Positions 5,196 to 56,676 of a DNA stretch of 64,000 bases are shown here, piece after piece. The first letter of the stretch is position 1, and every line of letters begins with the position of its first letter. Under the pieces are notes generated by a model. It saw only the letters and a list, made by a program, of their open reading frames with translations, searched no databases and was not told the origin of the DNA. A program made the position numbers and the translations under genes. Source of the stretch: an uncultured Blastocatellia bacterium (lineage in GTDB: Bacteria; Acidobacteriota; Blastocatellia; HR10); assembly GCA_937934295.1 (NCBI GenBank), contig CALHAI010000021.1, forward strand, positions 1 to 64,000, read 5' to 3'.

Positions 5196-5211
5196 TGTTC
5201 CACGTGGAACC
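5196..5211. promoter_or_regulatory. parS: parS site TGTTCCACGTGGAACc
   Basis: Perfect 14-bp palindrome GTTCCACGTGGAAC, close to the canonical parS TGTTTCACGTGAAACA, between parA and rsmG. Confidence 0.85.
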
Positions 5212-5213
5212 TC

Positions 5214-17200: not shown

Positions 17201-18835
17201 TCAACGTGTGGGAACGGGCATGAAGAGGCGGAATGTTCGCGCGAGTTCGTCTCGATAGGCGGAGACCTCTTCCTGTACGCGGGGCTCATCCCATCCGAGA
17301 TAAGTGCCCATAAGACGAGCGGCCGCCGGAGCACAGACAAGGCCCAAACAGCGGCTCCATCCAATGGCCGTGCGCCGCAGGAAGATGTCCGCCAGGCGAA
17401 CGGCATGTTCGCGCTCCAACGCGTAGATGATTTGAGCCGCGATGTCGGGATGGTATGGGCAGAGACGTTGGCCGAGCGCGCGCTCTCGCTTGACGAGTGC
17501 GAGCACTTCCGAACTTAATCCCCCGTAGACCTCCAGAAGATGCGCTGCCGATTCCGGTGCCACACCGAGGGCGCCAGCCATCTCCTCGACCTCACGCGGT
17601 GGGAAGGGAACGCCACCGGGTAACGGCTCGAAGCGCTCCTTGGGTCGAGCGCGGCGTGGGGGACGAAGCTTTCGGCAGGCGAGCGTCACGACATCCTCGG
17701 CCAGATGCCGGTAGGGGGTGATCTTCCCTCCGACGATGGAGACGAATCCGGCGAGTCCATCCTCGCGCTCGTGATCGTGAAGGATGTGGCGGCGCGTGAT
17801 TGCCCCTTCGGGTACGCCGGGCTGATACGGAAGCGGGCGCACGCCGGAGTACGCATACAGCAGATCCTCGTGCCGGAGGTCGGGGCCGAGCAAGCGACGG
17901 GCTTCCGCCAGCAAATAGGCGACCTCTTCATCGTCGGTCTGCACCTGATCGGCGTCGCCCTCGTATCGGACGTCCGTCGTCCCGATGAGCACGTACTCTT
18001 GCCATGGCACGATGAAGAAAGGCCGCCCATCCGCTTGCGCGGCGGCATAGAGCGCGTGGCGCAACCCCCACCGGTTGGGGACGACGAGATGACTGCCCTT
18101 GGTCCCCCCGATATAGCGCGGCATCGCCTGCGGCAGCAATCGGCAGACGGCATCCACCCATGGGCCGGCGGCATTGATCACTACGCGCGCGCGGACCAAC
18201 CCCTCTTCCCCACTCACGCGATCCCGCACGCGCGCGCCGCATACGGCTCCCGCTTCGAGCACAAGCCCGATCACCTCGGCATAGTTGAGGACATCGGCTC
18301 CACGCGCTTCGGCCGCGCGAACGTTCTCTATGACCAATCGTTCGGGAGATGTGACCTGAGCGTCGAAATAGAGGAAGGCCGCGCTTACCCCCTCCACGAT
18401 GAGCGCCGGTTCACGCTCGCGCACCTCGGCAAGCGACAGCGCCCGATGCGACGGCAGGCTCTTGCCCAACGAGAGCAGATCGTAGACGGCTAATCCGAGT
18501 CGGACGTGGCGAGGACGATACGGACCGTCGTGATGGAGCAGGATGAGGAAGGGAAGAGGGCGAACCAGATGCGGAGCCAGACGCAAGAGCGCTTCGCGTT
18601 CGCGGAGCGACTCGAAGACCAGACCGAACTCGCCGTGCTCCAGATACCGCAAGCCTCCGTGAATGAGCTTGGTCGAACGGCCCGTCGTCCCGCTGCTGAA
18701 ATCCTGGCGTTCGAGAAGTAGCGTCTTGAGCCCGCGTCCGGCGGCTTCGGAAGCGATGCCGGCACCGTTGATCCCCCCACCGATGATGAGGAGATCGTAC
18801 CGCGTCTGCGTCAACTGCTGGAGCGAGCGCCGCAT
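17201..18835 (-). CDS. glpD: Aerobic glycerol-3-phosphate dehydrogenase
   Basis: YDLLIIGGGINGAGIASEAAGRGLKTLLLERQDFSSGTTGRSTKLIHGGLRYLE. Confidence 0.93.
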   Translation of the reverse strand: MRRSLQQLTQTRYDLLIIGGGINGAGIASEAAGRGLKTLLLERQDFSSGTTGRSTKLIHGGLRYLEHGEFGLVFESLREREALLRLAPHLVRPLPFLILLHHDGPYRPRHVRLGLAVYDLLSLGKSLPSHRALSLAEVREREPALIVEGVSAAFLYFDAQVTSPERLVIENVRAAEARGADVLNYAEVIGLVLEAGAVCGARVRDRVSGEEGLVRARVVINAAGPWVDAVCRLLPQAMPRYIGGTKGSHLVVPNRWGLRHALYAAAQADGRPFFIVPWQEYVLIGTTDVRYEGDADQVQTDDEEVAYLLAEARRLLGPDLRHEDLLYAYSGVRPLPYQPGVPEGAITRRHILHDHEREDGLAGFVSIVGGKITPYRHLAEDVVTLACRKLRPPRRARPKERFEPLPGGVPFPPREVEEMAGALGVAPESAAHLLEVYGGLSSEVLALVKRERALGQRLCPYHPDIAAQIIYALEREHAVRLADIFLRRTAIGWSRCLGLVCAPAAARLMGTYLGWDEPRVQEEVSAYRDELARTFRLFMPVPTR

Positions 18836-18851
18836 GAGTCTCCCCCTTCGG

Positions 18852-20369
18852 TCACCCCGCTTCCGGCTCCACCCATCGGCGCGCGCGCTCGACAGCTCGC
18901 TTCCACCCGCGGTAGAGCGCCTCGCGCTCAACGGTCGTCAGCTGGGGGGTGAAGCGCCGCTCCATCCGCCAGTGCTGGGCGATCTCATCCGTGCTCTTCC
19001 ACACGCCGACGGCCAGTCCGGCCAGATAGGCTGCGCCGAGTGCCGTCGTCTCAGTGATCGCCGGTCGCACGACCGGCCGCCCAAGCACATCGGCTTGGAT
19101 CTGCAGAAGGAGCTCGTTGCGCGCGGCGCCGCCATCGGCGCGCAACTCTGCGAGCGTGACCCCCGAGGCCGCCTCCATCGCCTCGAGGACATCGCGCACT
19201 TGAAAGGCGATGGCTTCCAGTGTGGCGCGTGCCAGATGTGCGCGGGTGGTGCTCCGTGTGATCCCGATGATCATGCCTCGCGCGTACATGTCCCAGTACG
19301 GTGCGCCGAGTCCGACGAAAGCCGGAACGATGTACACGCCCTCGCTGGAAGGTACAGCGCGCGCCAGCTCCTCCACCTCTTCGGCCGAACGAAGGACCCC
19401 TAACCCATCGCGCAGCCACTGCACGGCGGCTCCGGCGATGAAGATGCTCCCCTCGAGTGCATAGCGCACGCCGTCGCGCAATCCGACGGCGATCGTCGCG
19501 AGCACGCCATTTTGGGGCGGAGCCGGCGCCGCCCCCGTATTCAGGAGCGCGAAGCATCCCGTCCCGTAGGTATTCTTCGCCATACCGGGATGAAAGCACG
19601 CCTGCCCAAAGAGCGCCGCTTGTTGATCGCCGGCATCTCCGGCGATTGGGATTGAGACGCCGAAGATCGCGCGCTCGGTCTCGCCGTAGACCTCGCTTGA
19701 GGGACGCACCTCCGGCAGCAGCTCGTGCGGGATATCCAGCCGCCGCAGGATCTCCTCATCCCAAGCGCGCGTGTGAATGTTGTAGAGCAGCGTGCGCGAA
19801 GCGTTCGAGGGATCGGTCGCGTGCACGCGCCCACCAGTGAGCTTCCAAATCAGCCACGTGTCCACGGTCCCCGCGCACAATTGGCCACGCCGCGCGCGCT
19901 CGCGCGCCCCGGGGACGTGATCGAGGAGCCAGCGGATCTTCGTCCCGGAGAAATAGGCGTCAAGCACAAGACCCGTCCGCTCCAGGATGACGCGGTCGAA
20001 GCCTTCGGCCCGCAGCCTCTCGCAGAGCGGAGCCGTACGCCGACATTGCCAGACGATGGCATTGTGAATGGGGCGACCCGTCGCTCGTTCCCAGAGGATC
20101 GTCGTCTCCCGCTGATTCGTGATCCCAACGGCGGCGATCTCCCCAGGAGCGATCCCCGACGCGCGAAGTGCCTCAAGAGCGGCCTCCCGCTGCGAATCCC
20201 AGATCTCCTCGGGATCGTGCTCGACCCACCCCGGCTGCGGGTAGATCTGGCGAAGCTCCCGTTGCGCGAACCCGCGAATTCGACCTTCCGCGTCGAAGAG
20301 GAGCGCGCGCGAACTCGATGTCCCTTGATCCAAGGCCAGAAGGTAACCGCTCATCGGCGTCCTCTGCAT
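18852..20369 (-). CDS. glpK: Glycerol kinase
   Basis: [62 protein letters not shown]; start may be 20354. Confidence 0.95.
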
Positions 20370-23688: not shown

Positions 23689-24126
23689 TCACGCGCCTTC
23701 AACGACCTCGATGGTCACCGCTTCGACCTCTCCGGAGATGATCCGGTAGGCCCGAAGGTCCAGCGCCGGCTGGAGCGAAATTATAAAATAGACGGCCTCC
23801 GGATAGTAAGCCCGCTCGACATCCGTCGCCGAGGGGTGCGCCGCCGACGTCGGATGTGAGTGATAGATGCCGAGCAACTCCTCCCCGCGAGCCCGCATGG
23901 CGCGAAACGCCTCCAGCACATCCTGCACATCGGCGAAGTACTCGACCGTCGGCCGCGCGGCTACGTTGCGCAAGGGATAAATGGCCTCGATGAGGCCTCG
24001 GCGTCCGGCCAAGAATCCGCAACACTCTCGCGGAGCCGCCGCACGCGCTTCGCGCTCAAGCTGCTCCAGGACCGCCCGCGTCACCTGAATGCGAGGGGTA
24101 TCAGAGGAAGAGCACGCCGTGCGCAC
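23689..24126 (-). CDS. JAMM/MPN+ metalloprotease-like protein
   Basis: PRECCGFLAGR and YHSHPTSAAHPSATDVERA match the E...HxHPxxxxxPSxxD JAMM signature. Confidence 0.82.
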   Translation of the reverse strand: MRTACSSSDTPRIQVTRAVLEQLEREARAAAPRECCGFLAGRRGLIEAIYPLRNVAARPTVEYFADVQDVLEAFRAMRARGEELLGIYHSHPTSAAHPSATDVERAYYPEAVYFIISLQPALDLRAYRIISGEVEAVTIEVVEGA

Positions 24127-25744
24127 GAGTGTCCGGCTCCAGCTCCTCGCGGATCGCGCAGAAGAGGCGCATGCCGTATCGCGCCAGGAAAGAGAAGGCG
24201 TTCATCGCACGCTCCTGCAACATCCCCTGTGGCGCCAGCGCGAGCACCAGACGCTGCGCCTGTCGGGAGAGCACCTCGTCTCGCCGCGCGCGCGCTTGTA
24301 GATAGTGTTGCCGTAAGGTCTCGATCTGGCGCCGCATCGCCTCCTTGGTGCGCTCGAGCGGCCGCTCGAGCGTCGGCTCCGCATCTCGCAAGAGCGGGCG
24401 CAGCTTCTCCACAGCATCGGCCACCACGCGCTGGGCGTCCTCGAAGAGACGAATGTCATCGAGCGTCCGTTCCAGGAGTCGCTGCCGAATGGCCGCAACG
24501 CCCGCGAAAAGATCCGTCAGCGCGAGGCCGTAGCGCGCGAGAAGTTCGGCCGGACGGGGCTCGACGAGCGTCAGCGACAGGCGCGGACAAAGCCGCGGCG
24601 GCCGCAGATCGAGCGTGGCATAGAGCGGCCCAAGCTGCGCGAAATACGCGATCTCGCTCGGCCCCCCGACGTAGACGAGCGTGGGCAACAGCGCATCTTG
24701 GGCGATCGGGCGCAATGCCACATTCGGACTGAATCGCGTCGGGACCTCCGCGATCTCTTCAAGCAGCCCCTCCGTGCTGAATCCTCTCCCGCTGTCGCGA
24801 GGGACGAAGTGTCCGTCCTCCCACAGGAAGGGACGGCGACGATCCTCCTCCAACAGAAAGAGGAAAGCGCTCCCTCTCTTCGGGTGAATCTGCGGACGAT
24901 ACCCCCGCGCTCTCAGACGCTCGCTCTCGGCGCGCAGTGCCTGGCTCAAGCGCGACCATTCGCGCACGGCGCGCGAGAGAACGGGTACCATCAGGCGTTT
25001 GATCCGCTCATCCGAGGGGTCGAGCAGAATGAGTCCCGTCTCCGCATGGAAGCGCATCATCGTGCGGGCGAACGCTTCGACAAGCGAGACGCCCGGCACA
25101 TAAGTCTCTCGCAGAAGCGCCGCGATTTCCGGCAGAAACTCCGAATCCGGCAGCGCGCGAAGAAGCGTCTCGCGCACCACTTCGATCCGCTCATCCAGCA
25201 CGAGCGCGCTCGCCGGTTTCCCCTCATCGCCTGCCGACGTGGGATATCGCAGCTCCACCCACTCGCCATCGCGTCCGAGAAGGCCGCAGCCGGTCGCTTC
25301 CGCGAGGTCATGATCCTCACTGTGAATCCAGAAGATCGGGACGGCTCGGACGCCGTACGCGCGCACGCGACGGGCGACCACAATGGCCGTCCACGCCTTG
25401 TAGAGGGTGAAGAGCGGCCCCGTAAAGAGTCCGGCTTGTTGGCCGGTGACGATGGCGACCGTCTCCGGCTCAGCCAGCTCTCGAATGGCGGCGCGCGTCG
25501 CTTCGTCCCCCCCCCACCGCGCGTTCTGTTCGCAGAGGACCTGACAGAGCGTCGTTCGTTCGAAAGCCCGTGCGGCCACCTGGCGCGCGCGCTCGCGGAG
25601 CTCTTCCCCCTCGCTCTCGGAAAGCGGCAAAAGCAATCGCCCGCCCCGGTAGAAGTCGGCGACCCTCTCGAAGTCGGTGAGGAAATCGAGGAAGAGCGAG
25701 GGCAGACCCGGAATCCGCGCGAACGCGAGCGGCTCCACCCTCAT
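24101..25744 (-). CDS. bshC: Bacillithiol biosynthesis cysteine-adding enzyme BshC
   Basis: VTGQQAGLFTGPLFTLYKAWTAIVVARR, VPIFWIHSEDHDLAEA, YVGGPSEIAYFAQL; upstream part of the long ORF overlaps the nitrilase gene and is spurious. Confidence 0.88.
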   Translation of the reverse strand: MRVEPLAFARIPGLPSLFLDFLTDFERVADFYRGGRLLLPLSESEGEELRERARQVAARAFERTTLCQVLCEQNARWGGDEATRAAIRELAEPETVAIVTGQQAGLFTGPLFTLYKAWTAIVVARRVRAYGVRAVPIFWIHSEDHDLAEATGCGLLGRDGEWVELRYPTSAGDEGKPASALVLDERIEVVRETLLRALPDSEFLPEIAALLRETYVPGVSLVEAFARTMMRFHAETGLILLDPSDERIKRLMVPVLSRAVREWSRLSQALRAESERLRARGYRPQIHPKRGSAFLFLLEEDRRRPFLWEDGHFVPRDSGRGFSTEGLLEEIAEVPTRFSPNVALRPIAQDALLPTLVYVGGPSEIAYFAQLGPLYATLDLRPPRLCPRLSLTLVEPRPAELLARYGLALTDLFAGVAAIRQRLLERTLDDIRLFEDAQRVVADAVEKLRPLLRDAEPTLERPLERTKEAMRRQIETLRQHYLQARARRDEVLSRQAQRLVLALAPQGMLQERAMNAFSFLARYGMRLFCAIREELEPDTRAHGVLFL

Positions 25745-29647: not shown

Positions 29648-30511
29648 TCACCGCCTCCTGGAAGCTGCGGCGTTCCACGACGCGCTCGACACTTCCGGCG
29701 CGCCTTCGCGCTGAGCGAGGGCGCGCTCGACCGGCTCGGCGACGATCCGATGTACGCGCTCCATGAGCGCATCAATGTCCACTTTGCGCATCCCCCGGGT
29801 CTCGATCGTATCGTGGATGTAAACGGTGATCGCCGAAGGGTAGAGCATCCAGCTCCCCGTCCGATGGAATTCATACGAGCCGACAATGCTCATGGGGACG
29901 ATGGGATAGCCCGTATACTGAGCCAGGACGAATGCCCCGCGTTGGAAGGGGCCGACGTGACCGGTGCGCGTCCGCGTCCCCTCGGCGAAGATGATCAGGC
30001 TGATGCCGTCATCGAGCGCTTGCTTGGCGCGCCGGAGCAGGCGGCGAAAGGCCGCCGGATTATTTGTGTCCTTCGGCACCGGGATATTGCCGAAGCGCTT
30101 CATCATCCACCCGTAGGCCGGAATCTTGAAATGCGTCTCCAGCTCCAGCCCGCGCACGAACTGCGGGATAGCCGAATAGATCACGAACGCATCGAAGATG
30201 TTCACATGATTGCAGACGAAGATGCTCGTGCGCGCGGGGTCGAACCCCGGCGCGTAGCGCACGTGAAAGCGAACGCCGGCCAGCCGCAGGACGTTGCGGA
30301 AGAACCACCGCTGCGGGCGATCGTTCTTGCGCGGATCAATGAACATCCCCAAGATGATGAGGAACGTGCACACGGGGAAGAAGTGCAGGATGCTCACGAT
30401 CCAGAGGAACGCGCTGCGGAGCACCAGATAGAGCTGGCGCAGCCAGCTTCTGGGCATGGTCTCGCGCTGCGGCCACGTTTGTGCGAGCGCTTTCAGGCGT
30501 TCAATCCTCAT
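29648..30511 (-). CDS. plsC: 1-acyl-sn-glycerol-3-phosphate acyltransferase (PlsC family)
   Basis: FVCNHVNIFDAF (NHxxxxD variant), FAEGTRTRTGHVGPFQRGAFVLAQ, YPIVPMSIVGS. Confidence 0.87.
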   Translation of the reverse strand: MRIERLKALAQTWPQRETMPRSWLRQLYLVLRSAFLWIVSILHFFPVCTFLIILGMFIDPRKNDRPQRWFFRNVLRLAGVRFHVRYAPGFDPARTSIFVCNHVNIFDAFVIYSAIPQFVRGLELETHFKIPAYGWMMKRFGNIPVPKDTNNPAAFRRLLRRAKQALDDGISLIIFAEGTRTRTGHVGPFQRGAFVLAQYTGYPIVPMSIVGSYEFHRTGSWMLYPSAITVYIHDTIETRGMRKVDIDALMERVHRIVAEPVERALAQREGAPEVSSASWNAAASRRR

Positions 30512-30525
30512 GACCTTCCTCCTGC

Positions 30526-31491
30526 TCAGATCATCACCTCAATGGCGGCGGGCAACACCTCCAGCCGCTCGCACTGCACGCGCAGCACCTCGCCGTCCAC
30601 CATCACAGGCACCGGGCCTTCCAACGCGAAGTCGATCCGTCGCACGGCCCGCCGTTCGCACAGCGGGTGCGCGATGTGCGAGCCGTCGAAGAGTCCGGGC
30701 AAGTTGCGTAACAGGCCGATCCGACCGATGGGCCCCCATCGCACGTACTCGATCAATCCGTCGCAGGGATCCGCTTGAGGAGCGATCAACATCCGCCCGC
30801 CCGTGAACTTGCTGTTCGAGAAGGTGAGGAACAAGCATCGGCGCGCGTCCATCTCCGGCGCGTCCTCCACGCGCACGGGGAAGGCGCGTCGCTTCAGGCG
30901 CATCAGGCACGCGAATACCCCCAGCAGATACCCCACTTCGCCAAGCGGCTTGAACCATCGGTTCGTCACCGCCGCGACATCGGCTGGGAACCCCACGCTG
31001 AGGAGATTGAGGAAATAGAGGACGCCATCGCGATGCACGAGCCGAAGCACATCGCACGCCCGCGCCCGTCCATGGCGCATGGCCTCGTGGACGCGACGGA
31101 GTGCTCCTTCGCCCAAGTGGGTACCAGCGGCCAGTGCGGCCTCGATCCCTTCCACAAGAAAATCGCGCAAGAAAGAGTTGCCGGTCCCCAAGGGGAGCAG
31201 CGCCAGACGCGGACGCTCGGGCTCGCCCTCGGCCTCCGGGAACACCCCATTGAGGACTTCGAATGCCGTCCCATCGCCCCCGACGATGAGGAACGACCGG
31301 TATCCCTCGCGATACGCGGCGCGCGCGTAAAGAGTGGCCTCGCCAGGTCGGCGCGTCCAGACGACCTCCATCGGCAGGCCACTCGCCCGAAGTTCAGCCA
31401 GTACGGACTCGGCCCGCTTCCCGCAGCGTCCCCCGCCCGCAGCCGGATTGACGATGGCGAAGAAATGCTTGTGACCTCGACTCACAGCCAC
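30526..31491 (-). CDS. Diacylglycerol/sphingosine kinase-like lipid kinase
   Basis: [48 protein letters not shown]. Confidence 0.87.
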
Positions 31492-33194
31492 AGAACGTCG
31501 GCGCGACTCCGGCGGGCGCGAATCTCCCCAGCCAGAGCCTTCCGCTTGATCTTCAGTGACGTCGTCCGCGGGAAATCGCGATCCCAGATGAGGTATCCGT
31601 GCACGCGCTTGTACTCCGGCAGCCGCCGATTGCGCTCGATCACCTGGCGGCGCACCGCTTCGGTGATCTCCTCCCCCGGCGGCGCGTGCAGGATGAGGAC
31701 CAGCGATTCTCGACCCAAGCGGCGTTCCGGCCACAGGTAATTCGCCGCGAAGATGCAAAACTCCTTCACCGGAAGCCCCTCGAAGAACGCCTCCACGTCT
31801 TCGGGATAGATGTTCTTCCCCCCTTCGGTCACGATCATATTCTTCTTCCGCCCGACCAGATGCAGATGGCCCGTCTCATCTATTCGGCCGAGATCACCCG
31901 TGAGCAGCCATCCATCCACGAGCGTCTCGGCCGTCAGCTCCGGATCATCCAGATAGTGCGACATCACATTCTTGCCGCGAACGGCGACTTCGCCGATCCC
32001 CTCCGCATCCGGGTTGAGGATCTTCACCTCTACACCCGGCAGCGGCTTGCCCACCGTGTCGGCGCGAAACGGCTTGAGATCGTTCACCGTGACGGCCGTG
32101 CATGCTTCGGTGAGCCCATAGCCGTTGGCGACCGGAATCCCGAGGTCGTAGAAGAATTGCAGCGTGGACGGCTCGGTGAATGCACCGCCGACGATGAGCA
32201 GCTCCAGATGCCCGCCAAAGGCACGATGGACCGCGGGGAAGAGACGACGGCTGAGTCGTACGTTCGGCCGCCGCCGCGTGAGCCACCGGTTGAGCCGCAT
32301 GAGCACATGCAGCAGCGCGCGCTTTTGCCAAGGCAGGGCCGCAAACCGTTCGCGCAATCCGCGCTCCAAGTTCTTGAGGATCATCGGCACGACGGTCATA
32401 TGGGTGATCTTATAGCGCAGGAAGGCCTCGCGAATATACTCGGGCCGAAGCGTACGCAGATGCACGACCGTCGCCCCGCAGACGAAGGGGCCGATGAACC
32501 CGACCATGAAGTCAATGGCGTGGTGCGTCGGCAGGATGCTCAGATAGCGCACCTCGGGAGAGAAGGGATAAACGGCCGTGAGCGAACGGCATTGTTCGAG
32601 ATAGTTCTCGTGAGTGAGGACGCAGCCTTTGGGGCGCCCGCCCGTGCCCGAGGAATAGACGATGCAGGCGATATCCTGGCGTCGGCGCGGAATGAAGGTG
32701 GGCTCGCCCTCGCCGCGAAACTCCTCCCAGCGCATGGCCCCGCCCAAATCCGCCTCCGGCGGCGCTTCCGTCACCAGGACCATCCGCAGCGGCAGCTCGC
32801 GCCATCCGGCTTCCTGTCGCAGCGCGCGCCAGAATGGAAATTCCGTGATGAGCACCGAGGCGCGCGCATGCCGCAGCAACTCAATCTGCTCGCGCGGACT
32901 CAGCTTGTAATCGAGAGGGACGAGCACGCCGCCCGCATAGAAGATGGCGTAGGCCGAGAGCAACCACTTCGATTGATTGGTCATGATGATGGCCGCGCGC
33001 TCATCGGGGGCGAAGCCCTGCTGCTGCAGGGCGCACACCAATGGCCGGGCGCGCTCCTTGAATTCCCGATACGTCAACCGACAGTTCTCGCGCTCACGAT
33101 CGGCCTCGATCAGACAGGTATAGTCCGCCCACCGCTCCAGAGCATCGCGGAGCGCCTCTCCGAGCGACTGATAGCGTTCCAACTCCGGCATCAC
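31482..33194 (-). CDS. Acyl-activating enzyme (AMP-dependent synthetase/ligase)
   Basis: [73 protein letters not shown]. Confidence 0.92.
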
Positions 33195-33433
33195 AACCTC
33201 GCGTGAATGCGCTCGGCTAAAGCTCGGAAGCTCGTCACCCCCTGCAGCTCGTAATCCGGCAGCTCGATCTGAAAATGTTGCTCCAAGCGCCCGAGCAGCT
33301 CCAGCGCTTGCAGGCTATCAATCCGCAGCGTCTCGAAGAGATCGTCGTCCGGGGAGAGCTGCTCCCGCGGCAGGCGAAAATAGCGCGCCGCCAAATCGAG
33401 CAACTCTTCGATCGTCTGCTCCAACGTGCGCAT
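33191..33433 (-). CDS. Acyl carrier protein
   Basis: [28 protein letters not shown] phosphopantetheine site (DSL); 4-bp overlap with ligase start. Confidence 0.88.
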
Positions 33434-33453
33434 CCTTACTATCCCTCCTCCCC

Positions 33454-34443
33454 TCAGTTCGTCGTCTGGCGGCCGGCCTCCCACACGTAGCGCGCGATCT
33501 CCTCATGCGTGGCGAACCATACACCCGGTCGCCGCCGCATGTGCTGGATCAACCGTTCGAGCATGACGATGCGTGACCGGTGCCCGATGATATGCGGATG
33601 CAGCGTGAGGATGAACATCGTCCCTTCCTCATAGGCCTGATCGAACTCGTCGCGCCAGATCGAGAAGACCTCCTCCGGCGTCGTGTGCGGCCGAATGGCG
33701 GATTGCCGATCCATGCCGAAGTAGGGGTAATCATCCAAGAGCCATTCGACCGGGAGCTCGACCACACCCGTCGGCGCTCCCTCGAGCAAGACCTCGTAAG
33801 GCCGGTCATCGGCCATGAGGCTGCTGTCATAAAGCAATCCGAACTCGCGAATGAGCTTCATCGTCCAGGGGCTGAAATCCCACGAAGGCGTCCGAATCCC
33901 TACAGGCCGGCGCCCGATGATCTGCTCTAAGGCGTCTAAGCTCCGACGCATCAGCTCCCGCTCCTCATCTTCCGAGAGCAGGGAGTTCCGCTCGTGAATC
34001 CACCCGTGCAGGGCGATCTCATGCCGTCCTCGCGCGAGAATCTCCCGCACTGATGGCGGATGGAGTTTCGCGCTCATGGCGGGGATGAAGAACGTCGCCG
34101 GGATCTGATACGTATCCAAAAGGCGCAGAACGCGCGGCAGACCCGCGCGCGCCCCATATTCGCCCTGCGCCATGAGGGCCGGGGACGTCTGTCCGTCGCG
34201 CAGCGCCGGCGTCTCATTGTCGAAGTCGAACGAGAGACCGACGGCGACGCGGGCACCGCCCGGCCACTGCTTGGGCGTCAGATCGCGCCCGGCGCGCACT
34301 CGGCGAGCGATTTCCAAGACACGGCTCTCGGGCCACCGCCATGGCGGCTCCTCCAGCCTTGGCTCGGTCGGGCGCGCCGCTCCCCAAAAGGCCATGAGCG
34401 TCGCCGCCCCGAGGCATCCCACTAAGAGACCGCCTGTTCTCAT
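33454..34443 (-). CDS. Polysaccharide deacetylase family protein, exported
   Basis: VGLSFDFDNETPALRDG, ATFFIPAMSAKLHPPSVREILARGRHEIALHGWIHE; N-terminal signal peptide. Confidence 0.85.
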   Translation of the reverse strand: MRTGGLLVGCLGAATLMAFWGAARPTEPRLEEPPWRWPESRVLEIARRVRAGRDLTPKQWPGGARVAVGLSFDFDNETPALRDGQTSPALMAQGEYGARAGLPRVLRLLDTYQIPATFFIPAMSAKLHPPSVREILARGRHEIALHGWIHERNSLLSEDEERELMRRSLDALEQIIGRRPVGIRTPSWDFSPWTMKLIREFGLLYDSSLMADDRPYEVLLEGAPTGVVELPVEWLLDDYPYFGMDRQSAIRPHTTPEEVFSIWRDEFDQAYEEGTMFILTLHPHIIGHRSRIVMLERLIQHMRRRPGVWFATHEEIARYVWEAGRQTTN

Positions 34444-34496
34444 CTTCACCTCCTTTCGCGAGAGCGCCTCCTGCGAAGGCTCCCTCGCAGCGCGCG

Positions 34497-35504
34497 TCAA
34501 AGCGTCCCCGTCAGCTCCATGGAACGCTGTTGCTTCCACTTGCGCAGGAAGCGCCCGAAGATGCCATTCCACGGCGGGATCACAATCGAGACCGCCCCGA
34601 AAGCGCGCGCTTGACAAGCCAGGCGAATGATGGGCTTCGGCTCATCGGTCTCCAGATATCCGAACTCCCGCAGCCGATGCCGCTCGTAATCCTCCATCTC
34701 CGAGAGCTTCTCAGCGCCACCGAGCACACCCACCCAACACGATCCGCATGACCCGGACCGGCATTGGACGGGGATCGGCCCTTCATTGGGCACGCATCGC
34801 GGATCGCGAAGATGATGAGGGCGCTTGTCCTGAGCCGCCGCCGTCGTCAGATGCTGACGGTTGATCAGCCGGAACGTCGCTTCGGGATCGTTCTCATCGA
34901 ACGTGATCGTCCACACCTTGTCCGGATACTTCCACCAGGAGAAGAAACCCTGACGATCATCGCGCGCTCGATGAGCGAGCACCTCCTCGGGCGTGCGCGC
35001 GGCGATCCGAGGATCGAGCGCGATCGTGCCTGGAGTCGATTCGAAGGCCTCCCACCCCACTTGCTGCAGCGTCATAAAGGCGACGGCCGTGATCCCCATG
35101 ACGAGCGAGGGCTCGAGGCGTCGTCGTTCGGCCACTTGGGCGGCGACCTCGCGAACGTGCCCAGCTAAGTCCAACGTCTGCGAGGCGCGAGGCGACTGCG
35201 CATACTCGATGACCGCGCGCTTCACCTCCGGCCAATATCTGTGGCCGTACAGAAACCGATGCGATGAATCGATCTGATCCACGAGCCGATACGTCCCATC
35301 GAGGAACAGCTCGCGCGCCAACGCCTGCGGATCCTCCGCCTCCTGCAACGCCTGCGCCAGCGAGAGCGGGAAAAAGTGAAACCAAATGCGCGTGGCCACT
35401 CGGTCTACTTCGTGAATGTGCGACTCCAGCTCGGCCAGGACCCGCTGCCACGCGTCTTCGTCATGCCGATTCACGAAAGCTTCAAAGAGTCGCCCATCCT
35501 TCAT
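34497..35504 (-). CDS. 2Fe-2S ferredoxin-domain protein
   Basis: C-terminal VQCRSGSCGSCWVGVLGG ... RLACQARAFGAVSIVIP (CxxxxCxxC...C) with a long N-terminal helical region of unknown family. Confidence 0.75.
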   Translation of the reverse strand: MKDGRLFEAFVNRHDEDAWQRVLAELESHIHEVDRVATRIWFHFFPLSLAQALQEAEDPQALARELFLDGTYRLVDQIDSSHRFLYGHRYWPEVKRAVIEYAQSPRASQTLDLAGHVREVAAQVAERRRLEPSLVMGITAVAFMTLQQVGWEAFESTPGTIALDPRIAARTPEEVLAHRARDDRQGFFSWWKYPDKVWTITFDENDPEATFRLINRQHLTTAAAQDKRPHHLRDPRCVPNEGPIPVQCRSGSCGSCWVGVLGGAEKLSEMEDYERHRLREFGYLETDEPKPIIRLACQARAFGAVSIVIPPWNGIFGRFLRKWKQQRSMELTGTL

Positions 35505-35618
35505 AGCCCCATCGCCCGAAACACACGCCTGATCTTCACGGGGGCTCCCCCCTCTGGAGAGGGATATTTTAACAAGAGGCCGCCGTTGCCTCAAAGTTTC
35601 CTCACCGCTGATCTCCAT

Positions 35619-35837
35619 TCATCGCATGCCGAGCAGATCGCGGGCGTCGTAATCGCAGATGAGCCCTTCCGGATCCTGGCTCTCGTACGCCTCGCGATCC
35701 ACCCAGACCTGGATGCGTCCTCTCTCGGCGACGCAGATGATCCGGTCCCGATGGACATATCGGCCCGTGAGCTGCCCGTACTCATTGAAGATCCATCCCG
35801 GGATCAAGTGCGCGACCGCACGAAAGTCAATGATCAT
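35619..35837 (-). CDS. Small hypothetical protein (72 aa)
   Basis: MIIDFRAVAHLIPGWIFNEYGQLTGRYVHRDRIICVAERGRIQVWVDREAYESQDPEGLICDYDARDLLGMR. Confidence 0.5.
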   Translation of the reverse strand: MIIDFRAVAHLIPGWIFNEYGQLTGRYVHRDRIICVAERGRIQVWVDREAYESQDPEGLICDYDARDLLGMR

Positions 35838-36015
35838 ACCTGAACCCTCCGCTCAAAGCCCTCGATATCTCCGCCACGGGCATCAGCTAATTGTAGACAT
35901 CGGCGGGGGATTCCGGCCAGACCAGGAAGCAGCGTCGGCCGGGATGATCCGTGCCCGAGTCATCCCGATTGCGCGGAGAGGTCGGGAGCGCGTCGGCAGA
36001 CTGCTTATCCCGGCT

Positions 36016-36043
36016 TTGATTCTCTGTCAAACTTTGCTATACT
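36016..36043 (+). promoter_or_regulatory. Candidate sigma70 promoter for the HAD-FAR operon
   Basis: TTGATT - 16 bp - TATACT, about 50 bp upstream of the CDS. Confidence 0.5.
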
Positions 36044-36091
36044 GTGGGCCGATCTCACGGGGCATGATCGGGGATTCGAAACAGAGAAAGG

Positions 36092-38449
36092 GTGTCGTCG
36101 AGTTGCTGTATGTCTGACGCGTGCCGATCGCACAATGCGAGCGTTCCGGCCCAGTGGATCTTCTGGCGCGTGGAGGGGAGCTTGCTGAACCTGAGCGCCG
36201 TGCATCCGATCGCCTTCTTCACGTGGAACGCGCAGAGCTTCGCCGAGCGATGGGCGCGGCGCATGAGTTTGGCGCTCTCGGCCGTGATTCGCCCCATCCT
36301 CTATCTGACCGACCGCGTCTTGGCCACGCGCGTGCTGCATGCGCTTTTGCGCGGCATCAGTCGGGATCGCCTCGAGCTGCTGGGAGAGGAATACTTCCAC
36401 TATGTCCTCAAGCCGCGCCTGAACAGGGAGGCGGTCGCGCGCGTGCAGCACCTCGCTGCTCAAGGGGCCCCGATCGTTCTGGTGAGCCAAGCGGTGGAGC
36501 ATATCCTGCGCCCTTTGGCGCAACATCTGGGCGTCCCATACATCCTCGCTAATCGGTTGGAGTTTCGCGCGGGGTTAGCGACCGGACGGTTGCTCGATCC
36601 GGTGATCCGCCCACGCGGTGCGCTGGCGCGACTGCGAGGCCTCTCGGTTGACGGTCGCCTCTCGTTGGAGCAACTGGCGCGCGATCTCGATCTCCCGCCC
36701 CAGGTCATCTGGCATGCGATCACGCCCGCTCATCGAGAGAGGGAGACGCCCTCAATACCGTCTCGTCTGGTGCTCTTCCGAAAACCGAAGCCGATCGCGC
36801 GCCTCTCCGTGCGCGAGGCGCTCGCCAACAAGCACATCTTGCTCATCGGGGGGACGGGATTCATCGGGAAGGTATGGCTAGCCAAGGTCTTGATGGACTT
36901 GCCCGAGATCGGACGCCTTTATCTGCTCATCCGTCCACATCGTTCGGCTTCGGCCAAACGCCGCTTTGAGACACTCGTGGCCGAGTCGCCGGTCTTTGAG
37001 CCACTCCGCAAACGCTATGGGGAGGAGCTGGAGCGATACCTGAACGAGCGGGTCGAAATCCTCGCCGGAGATATCACCCAGCCTGATCTGGGCATTGATC
37101 CGGAGACGCGCGCGCGTTTGCGGAAGGTGCTTGATCTGGTGATCAACAGCTCGGGATTGACCGATTTCAACCCCGATCTTCGCGATGCGCTGGCCATCAA
37201 CGTGGAGGGGACGCTCCATGTGCTCGACTTCATCCGGCAATGTGAGCGGGCAGCGCTGTTGCATCTCTCGACCTGCTATGTCGTTGGGTATCGGGACGGG
37301 TACATCCCGGAGGTTCCCGTCGCGAACTACACGCCCCAAGGGGTCCCCGATTTCGATGCCGAGCAGGAGCGCCAAGCCCTGCACGCGCTTGTGCGCGAGA
37401 TCTGCATGCGCGCCGAGAGCCCGGAGATCACCGAAGAGCTGCGACGGCAGGCCCAGGAGAGGGCTCGCGAAGCGCACGACAGCAGCGCCTCTGGACTGGA
37501 GACGCGGCTCCGCCGATATCGGCTGCGCTGGATTCGCAATCAACTTGTGGAAGTCGGGATGCGCCGAGCACAGGGGTGGGGATGGCCCAACACGTACACG
37601 TTCACGAAGAGTCTGGGCGAGTCGTTGCTCTTCACGCGGGGGGCCGATCTGCCCATCGCTGTCGTACGTCCTTCCATCGTCGAGAGCTCCATTGCGGAGC
37701 CGTTCCGAGGATGGAACGAGGGCGTGAACACATCCGCGCCCATCTCCTATCTGCTGGGGACGTACTTCCGGCAGCTCCCTTCGAATCAATGGAAGCGCTT
37801 GGATATCATCCCCGTGGATCTGGTCGTGCGGGGCATGGTGCTCATCGCCGCCGCGCTCTGCCAACGCTGGCACGAGCGGGTGTACCATCTGGCGACCTCC
37901 CTGCGCAATCCTTGCCCCATGCGCCGCTCGATCGAGCTGACGGGGCTCGCCCATCGCAAGTTCTATCGCGCGCAAAAGGAGCTGGAGTATCGGCTGCGCG
38001 CTTTCTTCGATCCCATCCCGGTCTCCAAGGAGCGGTATGAGCGGCTCTCGGTGCCGAGTCAGAAAGCGCTCATCCACGCGCTGCAGCGATTCAGCGCGCC
38101 GTTGCCCTTTGTCTATCCCTCGCTCGTGCGAAAGGAGCGCGATCTGGATCGCGTGGAGAAACTGATCGAGCTGTATGAACCGTTCATCCTTCACAATGAG
38201 CACATCTTTGAAGCGACGCACATCGAGTGGCTGCACGCGGCGCTCGTGCCCGAAGAGCGCGAGACCTTCGGCTACGACGTGACCGGCATTGACTGGTGGG
38301 AGTATTGGATCAATGTGCACATTCCGGCCCTTCGCCGATGGGCGTATCCGTTAATCGAGGGACGTCCGATTGAAGAACCGTCGCGGTGCGCTTCTCGATC
38401 GTTGACGCCCTCGAGCATGGGGGCGGCGGCGGGGTCGTCGGGAGATTGA
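36092..38449 (+). CDS. Fatty acyl-CoA reductase (NAD-binding_4/male-sterility type) fused to N-terminal HAD-like domain
   Basis: [58 protein letters not shown] (YxxxK), C-terminal [20 protein letters not shown]-terminal HAD-IB-like region [11 protein letters not shown]...[22 protein letters not shown]. Start codon uncertain (GTG 36092 or ATG 36110). Confidence 0.82.
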
Positions 38450-38460
38450 GCCGTTCGACG

Positions 38461-41087
<2,627 letters not shown>

Positions 41088-41159
41088 CGGCGACCCGAGC
41101 ACGGGAGCCGCTCGCCGTGCTTCCGGGCGCCGCATTCCATCATAGAGGGGAGTCATGGG

Positions 41160-42806
41160 ATGAACTTTCTTGAGGCTATCTTTCGCCAGTTGCAGGAAGC
41201 CGCTCATCGGCCCGTCCTTCAGGAAGTGCGACAGGGACGGATCATCTCGGTGACGGGTGCGGAGCTTCTCGCTTTGGTCCGCACGGCGCGTGCCTATGTG
41301 CGCCGTCAGGGCGTGCGCCCGGGCGATCGTTGCGCTCTGCTGGCGCCGAATAGCATTCGCTGGGTCGCGCTCGATCTCGCCCTTATGGCCGAAGGGATCC
41401 TCGTCGTCCCCCTCTACACGCGCCAGGCGCTCGCAGAAGTGGTTTACATTTTGAAGGATTGTTCCCCCGTGCTCCTTTTTGTGGAGGACGAGACGCTTCG
41501 CGAGCGATTGCGCTCACTGTGGTCGGAAGCTCCGCCGATGCCGCTTCTTGAAGACGTCTTCGCGCTGAATTCGGAGAGCGCGGCGATCCCCGATGTCCCG
41601 CTCCCGCGTGCCGACTCAGAGCCGGTGACGATCATCTACACGTCGGGAACATCGGGCGAGCCCAAAGGTGTCGTCCTCACCGTTGGGAACGTCACCTTCA
41701 TGCTCCCGCACACGCACGAGCGGCTCAATCGGCTCATGGGCCCACGGCGCGAGCCCGAACGCGTCTTCCACTACTTGCCCTTCTGCTTCGCGGGTTCCTG
41801 GATTCTGCTGCTGACCTGCCTGTCCCGGTCGAGCGTGCTCACACTCTCGACCGATCTCACGCGCTTCAATGAGGAGCTGCAGTTGGCCCGTCCCCATTAT
41901 TTCCTGAACGTCCCGCTCCTTCTGGAGCGAATGCGCGCCGGGATCGAAGATCAGATGCGGCGAAAGGGTCGAATCCTCTACGCTCTCTTCGAGCGCGGCC
42001 AGACGGCTTGGTTTCGTCGCTTCGAGGGCGTGGCCTCGGCTCGCGCTCTCCTGTGGCTCGCGCTCTGCCGTCCGCTCTTCCGTGCGATTCGAAGACGACT
42101 CGGGCCACATCTTGTGGCGTTCATCTGCGGATCGGCGCCCCTTCGCCGCGAGACGCAACTGTTCTTCATGATGCTCGGCATTCCCGTGCTCCAAGTCTAT
42201 GGCCTCACGGAGACGACGGCTATCTGCACGATGGACGATCCACAGGACTTCGTGCCCGGATGCGTCGGTCGCGCCATCCCGGGCATCGAGATGAGGCTCG
42301 CCGACAACGGTGAGATTCTCGTGCGCGGCCCCAATGTCTTCCCTGGCTATTGGAATCGCCCGGAAGCGACCCTTCAGGCTTTCCGCGATGGATGGTTCTG
42401 CACTGGAGATCACGGCGAAGTGGATGAGAAAGGGAATTGGAGCATCCTCGGACGGATCAAACACCTCATCGTCCTCAGCTCCGGCCATAACGTCCCACCG
42501 GAACCGCTTGAGGACTTGCTCCTTCGCGCTCTCCCAGGTGCCCAGCACGTCGTCCTTGTCGGGCACGGGCGTCCACATCTGGTGGCGTTGATCACCGGGT
42601 CCGTCATGCCCGCGCACGTCGAGGCGGCTCTGGAATCGCTCAACGCGCAGCTCCCCCACTATAAGCGCATTCGAGCATACGCGATCCTGCCCGAGCCCTT
42701 TACGATCGAGAACGGCCTGCTGACGGCCAACGGGAAGCTCCGGCGCGAAGCCATTCTCGCTCGCTTCCACCAGCAGATCGAACGCCTTTATGCATCGGTG
42801 AGCTGA
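41160..42806 (+). CDS. Long-chain acyl-activating enzyme (AMP-dependent synthetase/ligase)
   Basis: IIYTSGTSGEPKGVVLTVGN, QVYGLTETTAICTMD, WFCTGDHGEVDEKGNWSILGRIKHLIVLSSGHNVPPEPLE. Confidence 0.9.
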   Translation: MNFLEAIFRQLQEAAHRPVLQEVRQGRIISVTGAELLALVRTARAYVRRQGVRPGDRCALLAPNSIRWVALDLALMAEGILVVPLYTRQALAEVVYILKDCSPVLLFVEDETLRERLRSLWSEAPPMPLLEDVFALNSESAAIPDVPLPRADSEPVTIIYTSGTSGEPKGVVLTVGNVTFMLPHTHERLNRLMGPRREPERVFHYLPFCFAGSWILLLTCLSRSSVLTLSTDLTRFNEELQLARPHYFLNVPLLLERMRAGIEDQMRRKGRILYALFERGQTAWFRRFEGVASARALLWLALCRPLFRAIRRRLGPHLVAFICGSAPLRRETQLFFMMLGIPVLQVYGLTETTAICTMDDPQDFVPGCVGRAIPGIEMRLADNGEILVRGPNVFPGYWNRPEATLQAFRDGWFCTGDHGEVDEKGNWSILGRIKHLIVLSSGHNVPPEPLEDLLLRALPGAQHVVLVGHGRPHLVALITGSVMPAHVEAALESLNAQLPHYKRIRAYAILPEPFTIENGLLTANGKLRREAILARFHQQIERLYASVS

Positions 42807-43281: not shown

Positions 43282-43731
43282 ATGACGAAGTCGCTGCACG
43301 GGACGAAGAGCTTGGAGAACCTCAAGCATGCGTTCGCTGGCGAAGCGCAAGCGAATCGCCGTTATCTCTATTTCGCCCGCATCGCGGATATCGAAGGGTA
43401 TCCGGAGATCGGTGGGCTCTTCCGGGATACGGCCGAGGCCGAGACCGGTCATGCCTTCGGGCACTTGGACTTCCTCAAGGAAGTCGGCGACCCGGTGACG
43501 GGCGTGCCCTTTGGCAAGACCGAGCAGAACCTGAAGTCGGCCATCGAGGGCGAGACTTACGAGTACACGGAGATGTATCCCGGGTTCGCGCGCACGGCGC
43601 GCGAGGAAGGGTTCGACGAGCTGGCCGAGTGGTTCGAGACGCTCGCGCGTGCGGAGAAGTCGCACGCGGCCCGTTTCACCAAAGGCTTGCAGCAGATCGC
43701 GGGTAAGGAGCCTGCCGAATCGCTCGCGTGA
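43282..43731 (+). CDS. Rubrerythrin-family ferritin-like protein
   Basis: [47 protein letters not shown] ... [23 protein letters not shown]; no C-terminal rubredoxin domain. Confidence 0.93.
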
Positions 43732-43743
43732 GCGCTCGAAGCG

Positions 43744-43772
43744 CCTCCCGACCGAGGAGGCCGGTCGGGAGG
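43744..43772. terminator. GC-rich hairpin after the rubrerythrin gene
   Basis: CCTCCCGACC (43744-43753) / GGTCGGGAGG (43763-43772), 10-bp perfect stem; a second hairpin GGTGGC/GCCACC at 43815-43832. Confidence 0.5.
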
Positions 43773-43878
43773 TGCCGGGCGAGCTGCTCCGACGCCTTTC
43801 CTGATGGATGTCCGGGTGGCCTTGGCGCCACCTGGAGGCGCTCTTCTCCCTAAGGGAGACTTCCTGATGGGATGAGTT

Positions 43879-45156
43879 ATGGCGTTTGATCTGAAGTCGC
43901 CGGATTTCTGGAATCGCGAGGCGCTCGATCGGGAGCTGCGCCGCGTCTTCGATATTTGTCATGGCTGTCGGCGCTGCTTTCATCTCTGTCCCTCGTTCAA
44001 TGTCCTTTTCGAGCTCATTGACGCCAGAGGAGAGGATGTGGAGAACCTCACGCGGGCGGATATCACGCGGATCGTCGACCTCTGCTATCAATGCAAGCTC
44101 TGCTTCAACCACTGTCCCTACACGCCCCCCCACCGCTGGGACATTGATTTCCCGCGGCTCATGTTGCGGGCGAAAGCCGTCCAGGCCAGGGAGCGCGGGA
44201 TCTCGCGGCAGGATCGGATCCTGGGGCGCACGGAGACCTTGGGGCGTTGGGGAAGTCGATGGGCGCCGCTTGTGAATTTGGCCAATCGCCTTCGGCCTCT
44301 CCGCGTGCTCATGGAAAAAGCGATCGGCATTCATCGGGATCGGCGCCTGCCCGTTTACCATCGGGAGACGTTTGGGGATTGGTTCCGCGCCTATGAACGC
44401 GGGCGCGCCCACAGGCTTTCGGGGAATGGGAAGGTGGCGCTCTTTTACACGTGCTATGTCAATCATCACGATCCGGCCGTGGGGCGGGCCGCCGTGCGTG
44501 TCCTCGAACATAATGAGGTGGAGATCGTCGTCCCACCGCAGAGATGTTGTGGGATGCCCTTCTTGGATGGAGGCGACCTTGAATCGGCGTTGGCCAATGC
44601 TCGCGAGAACGTGCGGGCGCTGGCTGAGCTGGTCGAAAAGGGATATGACGTCGTGATTCCCGGCCCGACCTGCAGCTACATGCTCAAGCACGAGTACCCG
44701 GTCCTACTGGACGACGAGAAGGCTCGTCGCCTCGCGGAACGGAGCTTCGATCTCTGCGAATATCTCATGAAGCTTCACAGCGAGAGGCGGTTGAAGACGG
44801 ACCTCAAGCCGATCGCGCAACGAATCGCTTATCAATTCCCCTGTCATCTTCGCGCTCAGAATATCGGATACAAGTCGCGGGACCTGATGCAGCTGGTCCC
44901 TGGGACAACGGTGCGGGTGATTGAACGGTGCGCTGGGGTGGATGGGACGTGGGGCCTCAAGCGAGAGTACCATGCCCTCTCGCTCAAAGTCGCCGAGAGG
45001 CTCTTCCGCGAGATCGAGCGGGAGCAACCCGATCTCGTCGTCTCCGACTGTCCCTTGGCGGGGCTGCAGATCTGGCAGGGGACGGAGAAGCGCCCCGTTC
45101 ATCCCATTCAGGTCCTGGCGCGAGCATACGGACTGGAGGAGGGGGGACGACCATGA
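43879..45156 (+). CDS. GlpC/HdrD-like Fe-S oxidoreductase
   Basis: Two CxxCxxxC clusters ([22 protein letters not shown]) and CCG-type motifs ([20 protein letters not shown]). Confidence 0.87.
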
Positions 45157-45737
45157 GGAAGATCACGCTCGCCGATGTCCACGATATCGCCGAGTACGAG
45201 AAGATCCGCGAGGAATTTCGGCGCGCGATCATCGCGCTGAAGAAGAGGCGCCGCGTTCAAGTGGGTGACTTCGTGACCTTCGTCTTTGAGAACCAGGAGA
45301 CCGTCCTCTTCCAGATTCAGGAGATGATGCGTGCCGAACGCATCGTCCACGAGGATAAGATCCAGCAGGAGATCGACATCTACAACGAGTTGATCCCCGA
45401 GGACAACGAGCTGAGTGCGACCATGCTCATCGAGATCGACGATCTCAAGGTGCTGCGCCAATGGTTGCCGAAGCTCGTCGGCATCGAGGAACAGGTCTGG
45501 CTGCGGATCGGCGATCGGCACGCGGTCCGCGCCCTGTACGAGCCCGGGCGCAGTAAGGAGGGCACGACGAGCACCGTCCACTATGTGCGCTTCCGTTTGA
45601 GCCCCGAGGAGATTCGGGCCTTCAAGGACGAATCGCTTCCGGCCGTGCTCGCCATCACGCACAAGAACTATCGCGCCGAGGCGACGATCCCTCTTGAAGT
45701 GCGGCGCAGCTTGGCTGAGGACCTCGTGCTCCCCTGA
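45153..45737 (+). CDS. DUF3501 family protein
   Basis: [64 protein letters not shown]; 4-bp overlap with upstream Fe-S gene. Confidence 0.78.
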   Translation: MRKITLADVHDIAEYEKIREEFRRAIIALKKRRRVQVGDFVTFVFENQETVLFQIQEMMRAERIVHEDKIQQEIDIYNELIPEDNELSATMLIEIDDLKVLRQWLPKLVGIEEQVWLRIGDRHAVRALYEPGRSKEGTTSTVHYVRFRLSPEEIRAFKDESLPAVLAITHKNYRAEATIPLEVRRSLAEDLVLP

Positions 45738-45769
45738 GCGTCCGGGGAGGAAAGAAGGAGCGGTGGCTT

Positions 45770-46255
45770 ATGAAATTGAACATCGGGCTCACGGACAGAC
45801 AGCGCGGGGGCGTCGTGGAAATCCTCAACACGCTCTTGGCCGATGAATTCGTCCTCTATGCGAAGACGCGGAATTATCACTGGAACGTCACCGGGCCGCA
45901 ATTCCACGAGCTGCATCGGTTCTTCCAAGAGCAGTACGAAGCCTTGAACGACATCGTGGATGAAGTCGCCGAGCGCGTGCGCGCGCTTGGGGGCAACGCC
46001 CTCGGGACGCTGGCGGAGTTCCTCAAGCGGACGCGCTTGAAGGAGCATCCGGGGAAGTATCCCACTGCCCGCGCGATGCTCGCGAATCTGCTGGAGGATC
46101 ACGAGGCGATCATTCGGCATCTGCGGAGCGACCTGGAGACATGCGCCGAGAAATATCGCGACATGGGGACGAACGATTTCCTGACCGAGTTGCTGCAACG
46201 GCATGAGAAGATGGCGTGGATGCTCCGCGCGTCTCTCGCAGGGGAATCCGTTTAG
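45770..46255 (+). CDS. Dps/ferritin-like DNA-protection protein
   Basis: LLADEFVLYAKTRNYHWNVTGPQFHELHRFFQEQYEALNDIVDEVAERVRALGG. Confidence 0.92.
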   Translation: MKLNIGLTDRQRGGVVEILNTLLADEFVLYAKTRNYHWNVTGPQFHELHRFFQEQYEALNDIVDEVAERVRALGGNALGTLAEFLKRTRLKEHPGKYPTARAMLANLLEDHEAIIRHLRSDLETCAEKYRDMGTNDFLTELLQRHEKMAWMLRASLAGESV

Positions 46256-51906: not shown

Positions 51907-53321
51907 TCAATCTTCCCAATGGTCTTCCCCATCGTAATGGAGGACGAGCGTCTCGCCATCGACAACGGTCTCCAGATGGACGTCGCGCCCCCAGAGCTTG
52001 TAGACGTACTCCAGCGTCTTCTTCGCGTACTCGATGTCGAGCTCGATGCCCTCGTATCGGTGGCGCAGATAGAGTTCCCGATTCCCATTGTAATCCCCAT
52101 CGAGCACCTCGATGACGGGGAATCCGAAATTCGTCATGTCGGCAACCATCTGATCGCGGATGCGCTCCCACGTCTTGTCGGTGATCACCCATTCCTCTTC
52201 ATCTCTCAGCTCGAAGATATAGAGGTCCAGCTCCTCGACGAGCTGTTGGGTGAGGTAATTCCGAATGAAGGAGATGTCGTTCTCCAGTTGTCGGACCTCG
52301 AAGATCTTCTCGCGGCCGTTCCCGGGCTGGCGGCCGAACTTCTCAATCTCCTCCGGCGTCGGGTTATCCCAGCGGCGCTCGATATCTTCGAAGATCTTGA
52401 ACCCGACGTAGTAGGGGTTGAGACTCCCCTTGCGGGGGGAGACGACGTGGGCGTGTAGCATGGCGAATTCGACGAACTCTTCATCGGTCAGGTCCAGCTC
52501 GCGCAGGATGCGCGTGTGCCAATAACTGGCCCATCCCTCGTTCATGATCTTGGTCTGCAGTTGCGGGACGAAGTACTCCATCTCCTCGTGGATCATCGCC
52601 ATGATGTCCCGCTGCCAAGGCTCCAGGACCGGTGAATGGGTCATGATGAAGCGCACCAAATCCTTCTCCGGTTCCGGCGGGAAGCGGCGCGGCGCTTCCT
52701 CCTCTTCCGTCTTCAATGGCGTCTCCCGCTTCGGTTCGTCGAGAGCGAACAGATCGTCGTACTTCCCCGGTTTGGGAGGTGATGGCTTCGGTTTCCCCGC
52801 CTCCTCGGCGCGTTCCTCTCGGATGAAGAGATCGGGATGGATATGCTCTTGGATCGAGAGGATGGCATCGAGGAAGGCCTCGACCGTCTTCCGCCCGTAT
52901 TTGAACTCGTACTCGCGAATCCGCTCGGCGTGCGTCACCGTTTCGTCCACCATCCGACGGTTGGTCTTGGAGAAGTAGATGTTGTTCTTGAAGAAGTCGA
53001 CGTGAGCGATCACGTGGGCGATGATCATCTTGTTGTGGATGAGGGAAGTCCCCTCCAGCAGGAAGGCGTAGGCCGGATTCGCGTTGATGACGACCTCGTA
53101 GAGCTTCGACAGCCCCAGATCGTACATGAGCTTCATCTTGTGATAGGCCTTGCCGAAGCTCCAGTGCGAGTAGCGCCCCGGCAGCGCGTAGGATCCGATC
53201 TCGTAGATCACCGTCGCCGGGACGATCTCGAAATGGATGGGGAAGGGATCGAGCCCCAACTCGCGGGCCTTATCCCAGATCTCTTCGATCGCCTTCTCCA
53301 AGGCCTTGATCTCCGCGTCGC

Positions 53322-53325
<4 letters not shown>
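51907..53325 (-). CDS. spoVR: SpoVR family protein
   Basis: [63 protein letters not shown]. Confidence 0.95.
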
Positions 53326-54482
<1,157 letters not shown>

Positions 54483-54539
54483 ACGACCTCCTCCTCCGGT
54501 CAGAGCGTTCGAGACGACGCGTCGGTCGCCCCGCGCCCT

Positions 54540-56474: not shown

Positions 56475-56676
56475 ATGCCTCTCCTCCTCGCCCATCTCCG
56501 CTCGCGGGAGCGGATGGACGTCTCCCGAAGGAAAAAATCTCCGGAGCTCAAAAGAGCGAGTGGTTTGGTCCCAAAGATCGGCGTGAGAATTCCGCTGCGA
56601 TGTCGTCAATCAACGTTTGGCCTGCTCAGGCTCGATGTGCGAGCCTGAGTCGGCCATTAGTATACATGAAGCCGCT

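Follow-up and report, generated by a model that had tools for sequence, protein, structure and literature searches.

What does a bacterium build at a locus that combines two acyl-activating enzymes, an acyl carrier protein (ACP), an acyltransferase, a lipid kinase, two reductases and a protein resembling polysaccharide pyruvyl transferases (PPT)? The question is raised by positions 29648-42806 of a 64,000-nucleotide stretch of DNA (hereafter, the window) from an uncultured Blastocatellia bacterium (GenBank assembly GCA_937934295.1, contig CALHAI010000021.1, here C21), whose genome measures 2.79 Mb, is 94.5% complete and has Acidobacteriota bacterium JZ-3.bins.73 and Bacterium HR10 as its nearest named relatives. 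Our analysis indicates that the gene set is a real lipid-building cassette, kept in near-fixed order in many soil and hot-spring Acidobacteriota, that by sequence it looks like an undescribed, unfused and expanded variant of an Elb-like system, and that a function in ether lipid synthesis is probable. A literature search for such a cassette, with many subscription papers outside its scope, found no description; searches for ElbD go by its sequence and could overlook an unfused cassette that lacks the ElbD ligase lineage.

On the plus strand, the locus encodes a protein joining a degenerate HAD-IB domain to the NAD_binding_4 and Sterile domains of a fatty acyl reductase (HAD-FAR; 36092-38449, start codon uncertain), a stand-alone thioester reductase of the short-chain dehydrogenase/reductase family (SDR; 38461-39639) with a YARTK active site and the MxaA reductase (R) domain as its closest solved relative, the CsaB-like PPT protein (39636-41087; PF04230, PS_pyruv_trans), and the second acyl-activating enzyme, LigB (41160-42806; AMP-binding and AMP-binding_C_3 domains). 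The minus strand carries the acyltransferase PlsC (29648-30511; PF01553, with NHxxxxD and EGTR motifs), a lipid kinase of the YegS/DAGK family (30526-31491, GTG start), the acyl-activating enzyme LigA (31482-33194; PF00501, AMP-binding) and the ACP (33191-33433, ATG start in a reading frame open to 33484), with its phosphopantetheine serine in a DSLQ motif. Overlaps join SDR and PPT (4 nucleotides, 39636-39639), ACP and LigA (4 nucleotides, 33191-33194) and the kinase and LigA (10 nucleotides, 31482-31491). Domains were called with Pfam and NCBIfam, and start codons were picked partly by comparison with relatives. An earlier interpretation of the window made from its letters, the sequence-only reading, had listed ten genes here with their domains and short overlaps, and all of them were found in the reading frame coordinates and domain matches.

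A profile search of genome contigs with a HAD-FAR alignment yielded 225 relatives, of which the best 80, nearly all from metagenome-assembled genomes of Acidobacteriota, were taken for examination of their loci. Counting for each gene the named loci whose contig reaches far enough to show it, the SDR was kept in 70 of 70, PPT in 59 of 59 and LigB in 53 of 53, followed by an enoyl-CoA hydratase (51/53), ACP (51/53), LigA (49/51) and the kinase (48/50); PlsC was seen in 14 of the 80 named loci. The one-strand order FAR-SDR-PPT-LigB-hydratase-ACP-LigA-kinase, sometimes with PlsC next, was present in 47 of the 48 complete named loci, and in genome G132 the arm with LigA and PlsC was located on another contig. 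Catalytic motifs are conserved in FAR, SDR, LigA, LigB, ACP, kinase, PlsC and hydratase. The two arms are therefore co-conserved in the relatives; a lack of co-conservation, which the sequence-only reading had named as grounds for refuting it, did not appear. This gives strong support to the dedicated lipid pathway that had been proposed, for a set of eight or nine conserved genes in place of the ten listed: that list took in the ferredoxin and deacetylase genes, which are only local, and did not have the hydratase. At identities of 62-69%, FAR, SDR and the first part of PPT also occur on a contig labeled Bacillota (L192), which represents either a mislabeled bin or a transfer.

The described system to which these enzymes can be compared is the Elb locus of Myxococcus xanthus, where ElbD is a fusion of fatty acyl reductase, acyl-CoA synthetase (ACS), ACP and acyltransferase (AT) adjoined by a HAD protein (ElbB) and SDRs (ElbA, ElbE) (PMC9131029). 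Most ether lipids are lost in elbD mutants, the FAR and AT activities not having been demonstrated in vitro (PMC9131029). According to the literature, elb homologues occur in subdivision 4 Acidobacteria, one of which, Pyrinomonas, has abundant ether lipids. The next-best acidobacterial FAR homologues in our searches were mostly proteins of 1440-1515 aa with the FAR-ACS-ACP-AT arrangement, encoded next to a HAD gene and in many cases to a lipid kinase; the comparison set consisted of such acidobacterial Elb-type sequences, the M. xanthus sequence being outside it. The split FAR aligned with the ElbD FAR at 345 BLAST bits, and each scored 174-181 HMMER bits against the solved FAR 7EOZ. In the FAR tree, the split FARs formed one clade (100/99) nested among Elb FARs with moderate support (88/75, 93/94), a nesting that is weakened by the long branches that meet there. 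A search for outgroup FARs among plasmids gave no match. The HAD part of HAD-FAR also aligned with Elb HADs. These data point, with moderate support, to an Elb lineage for the FAR. On the other hand, the ligase tree, whose deep forks are unsettled, did not support LigA as sister to the ElbD ligase; LigA, on a long stem, and LigB each formed a separate clade apart from housekeeping ligases. A simple fission of ElbD finds no support in this tree. With a nested FAR and a homologous HAD remnant, but a ligase not supported as a specific sister, the locus appears Elb-like by composition and neither a plain member of the system nor a demonstrated ElbD fission.

Like the M. xanthus locus, the cassette brings together a FAR, an acyl ligase, an ACP, an acyltransferase, a HAD-family domain and an NAD(P)-dependent SDR, but the functions of the single ElbD polypeptide are spread over four genes in the window, the HAD domain is degenerate and fused to FAR, the SDR is of the thioester reductase type, and PPT, LigB and the hydratase are additional. 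The acidobacterial ElbD-type loci (such as L031, L035 and L039) belong to the same phylum and share the enzyme set and the adjoining lipid kinase and HAD, but have LarA-like and epimerase or alcohol dehydrogenase genes where the cassette has PPT, SDR, LigB and hydratase; the LarA-like gene (lactate racemase N-terminal) recurs in L031, L037 and L039. LigB, ACP and SDR also resemble a split ligase-carrier-reductase of the carboxylic acid reductase or MxaA type, except that the cassette proteins are separate and FAR is present too.

Among 396 sampled Acidobacteriota genomes, the split HAD-FAR cassette was found in 12, the Elb-type FAR, common in the class of the window genome, in about 49, and both together in none. 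Mutual exclusion of the two types is only suggested by these figures, because families cluster and about 1.5 co-occurrences are expected phylum-wide, so that zero is unsurprising. The PPT marker was present in 115 of 399 sampled Terriglobia (about 29%).

Several loci provide a link to tetraether synthase (Tes), homologues of which in Acidobacteriota have been proposed for the synthesis of branched glycerol dialkyl glycerol tetraethers (brGDGTs) (PMC8941075, PMC10087280). A radical SAM protein of about 720 aa encoded beside the cassette in loci L026 and L029 matches the solved tetraether/macrocyclic archaeol synthase 7TOL (E=3e-65), and a Tes homologue lies at most 10 kb upstream of the cassette in 5 of the 61 named loci whose contigs show 2.5 kb or more of upstream sequence, against a chance expectation that we estimate at about 0.1 of 61 (one gene per several Mb, ignoring kinship). 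The linkage, which is seen in several lineages, recurs in L130 (at a contig edge), and in L037 a Tes homologue is located about 1 kb from an Elb-like locus. The window genome has its own Tes homologue (82%) on contig C7, paired with a second radical SAM gene of 378 aa (L119:9791-13048), a pair seen in L026 too.

We favor, with moderate confidence, the reading that the genes of the locus form a pathway dedicated to alkyl (ether-type) glycerolipids. It would resemble the myxobacterial Elb system in its working, with the ElbD functions divided among individual genes and a further module added. Among the products that had been considered, an alkyl-ether lipid fits best through the Elb homology. 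Judging from the genes, from which the reactions, their order and the product are all deduced, LigA would activate a fatty acid, probably iso-branched, and load it on the ACP; FAR would then reduce the acyl thioester to a fatty alcohol (or aldehyde). In a step without an assigned enzyme, the alkyl chain would be joined to a glycerol unit. The YegS-type kinase would phosphorylate the (alkyl)glycerol, which PlsC would acylate. LigB and the MxaA-like SDR, aided by the enoyl-CoA hydratase, may constitute a second module of activation and reduction, acting on the other chain or on the other chain end, and the PPT-like enzyme could modify the head group, possibly by pyruvylation. A Tes homologue, either neighboring or unlinked, would join the chains into membrane-spanning lipids.

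Besides the long branches of the FAR tree and the position of LigA, several points weigh against this proposal. No ether-forming enzyme was identified and an alkylglycerone-phosphate synthase (AGPS) was not seen; the alkyl-ether product of cassette carriers is deduced from genes, not from lipid profiles; and ElbD homologues exist in some bacteria without detected ether lipids, such as Pontiella (PMC11868695). The HAD domain has probably lost phosphatase activity: at least 95% of 87 sequences carry WRVEGS at motif I instead of FDxDGT, which removes the nucleophilic Asp, and motif IV was not found in the part compared. PPT, LigB and hydratase had no counterpart in the Elb loci read. Tes linkage is the minority state, and the long-type Tes is common across the phylum with or without the cassette, so the linkage supports a shared product and does not prove it. 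Finally, a split pair of proteins similar to Ger/PlsA in the window genome could make ethers by itself.

This pair, on contig C6 (L121:7920-11256), consists of a BcrAD_BadFG protein (matching in two stretches) and a DUF2229 protein; no such reductase lies within the cassette locus. The PlsA/Ger route, which had been named for comparison, also makes ethers, from ester lipids, but by other chemistry and with other families, unlinked to the locus; the resemblance went as far as the split pair elsewhere in the window genome, and did not extend to all cassette genomes, as the pair is lacking in two of them, G084 and G023, for which a completeness of 100% is listed. The route through AGPS and FAR1 (MXAN_1676-1674; animal peroxisomal) likewise uses a fatty alcohol made by a FAR. 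It was rejected after a scan of the window genome, 94.5% complete, for PF01565 and the HHHG motif gave nothing AGPS-like: the PF01565 matches were two neighboring genes of GlcD/GlcE size and one reading frame of MurB size, and the HHHG motif was absent in both loci read.

An unlikely alternative to a membrane ether phospholipid is a pyruvylated or otherwise decorated alkyl or fatty-alcohol glycolipid, or a lipid-linked glycan, for which the PPT-like enzyme of GT-B type would catalyze the committed step. PPT is among the best-conserved members of the cassette (60-70% identity, in every locus with room for it), its invariant residues R179, R349 and H351 match the CsaB residues R148, R306 and H308 that bind phosphoenolpyruvate, and a deacetylase gene adjoins that of the ACP in the window. 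However, the deacetylase is genus-specific, and the CsaB model scored 58.7 bits, far below its cut-off of 213. The PS_pyruv_trans match itself was a weak one, scoring 31 bits where the cut-off is 25, and the position equivalent to CsaB K328 is not Lys. The structure prediction (pLDDT 91.9) gave a GT-B fold, for which the best matches in a PDB fold search were generic GT-B enzymes only, with TM of about 0.5 or less, and a PDB sequence search gave no match. Moreover, genes for glycosyltransferases, flippases or sugar nucleotides are not conserved in the operon, and the kinase and PlsC indicate a glycerolipid.

These same two enzymes bear on the other alternatives. They would be left unexplained by a specialized fatty-acid or polyketide-like chain released reductively by SDR or FAR, for example a signal or secondary metabolite, a prospect that we consider quite unlikely. 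Both catalytic Glu residues are kept in the hydratase, itself present in nearly all loci, the SDR is closest to MxaA, and two loci carry a FabH-like ketoacyl-ACP synthase III between hydratase and ACP (L238, 1640-2629; L239, 18217-19218), but most loci lack that synthase, and a gene order that hardly changes from family to family points to a core component of the cell. Kinase and PlsC would also be unexpected if the product were a fatty alcohol, an aldehyde, a wax ester or another neutral lipid, which we regard as very unlikely even though the central enzymes are a FAR and a thioester reductase. Wax esters, one of the products proposed by the sequence-only reading, are further weakened because the wax ester synthase/diacylglycerol acyltransferase (WS/DGAT, PF03007) is lacking from 9 of the 12 cassette genomes, the window genome among them, and a wax-ester pathway was rejected for the latter on this ground. 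A chance cluster of ordinary genes for fatty-acid scavenging and phospholipid turnover is extremely improbable. Every enzyme family is common alone, and in the window genome AMP-binding matches number 8 and another PlsC, with a better score, lies outside the locus, but the one order kept by 47 of the 48 complete loci largely refutes such a cluster, LigA and LigB stand apart from housekeeping ligases, and the distribution is patchy and not universal.

The layout seen in the window, divergent, lacking the hydratase and including genes for ferredoxin and deacetylase, is confined to a single genus, that of the window (L125, L235, L236). Its members have the operon rearranged into two divergent arms, and in the window genome the hydratase gene lies outside the window locus, on another contig of the same genome, at 68% identity. 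The polysaccharide deacetylase, PuuE-like and with an N-terminal hydrophobic signal (33454-34443, minus strand), accompanies the cassette only in L125, L126 and L235 among the loci read, no gene being called at that spot in L236. The next gene, for a protein with a C-terminal 2Fe-2S ferredoxin domain (34497-35504, minus strand), has a counterpart beside the cassette in all three loci of the genus. As companions of the cassette, both neighbors are limited to the window's genus or very near it. A minus-strand reading frame of 72 aa (35619-35837) lies upstream of the ferredoxin gene, with frames called there also in L235 and L236. A promoter scan found 3 sites against 2.5 expected, which carries no weight.

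Elsewhere in the window, LigB is followed (43282-46255) by genes for rubrerythrin-like, heterodisulfide-reductase-like Fe-S, DUF3501 and Dps-like proteins, in the same order in L125 and L235. Genes for a glycerol-3-phosphate dehydrogenase-like protein and an FGGY sugar/glycerol kinase (17201-20369), 10 kb from the locus, are a possible glycerol supply for it. The DnaA, ParB, GidA and MnmE genes at 1095-9260 place the window probably near the chromosome origin, BshC (24101-25700) suggests bacillithiol synthesis, and a stress cluster of SpoVR, DUF444 and PrkA occupies 51907-56609.

Extending the alkyl glycerolipid pathway favored above, we tentatively propose that the cassette could give soil and hot-spring Acidobacteriota without ElbD an oxygen-tolerant way of making membrane-spanning lipids with ether bonds (iso-diabolic glycerol ethers, possibly brGDGTs). 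Such a route would be unfused, with two modules of activation and reduction, one per chain or chain end, and would employ a Tes homologue and a PPT-like enzyme with a new role, either in forming the ether or in head-group chemistry. The brGDGT climate proxies are limited by the open question of which enzymes form the ether bonds of acidobacterial membrane lipids (PMC11868695, PMC13274423). Present in about 29% of the sampled Terriglobia and sometimes located beside Tes, the cassette offers a concrete candidate set for matching genes to lipid profiles, and it may help to explain how these Acidobacteriota produce the ether lipids that serve as climate proxies.
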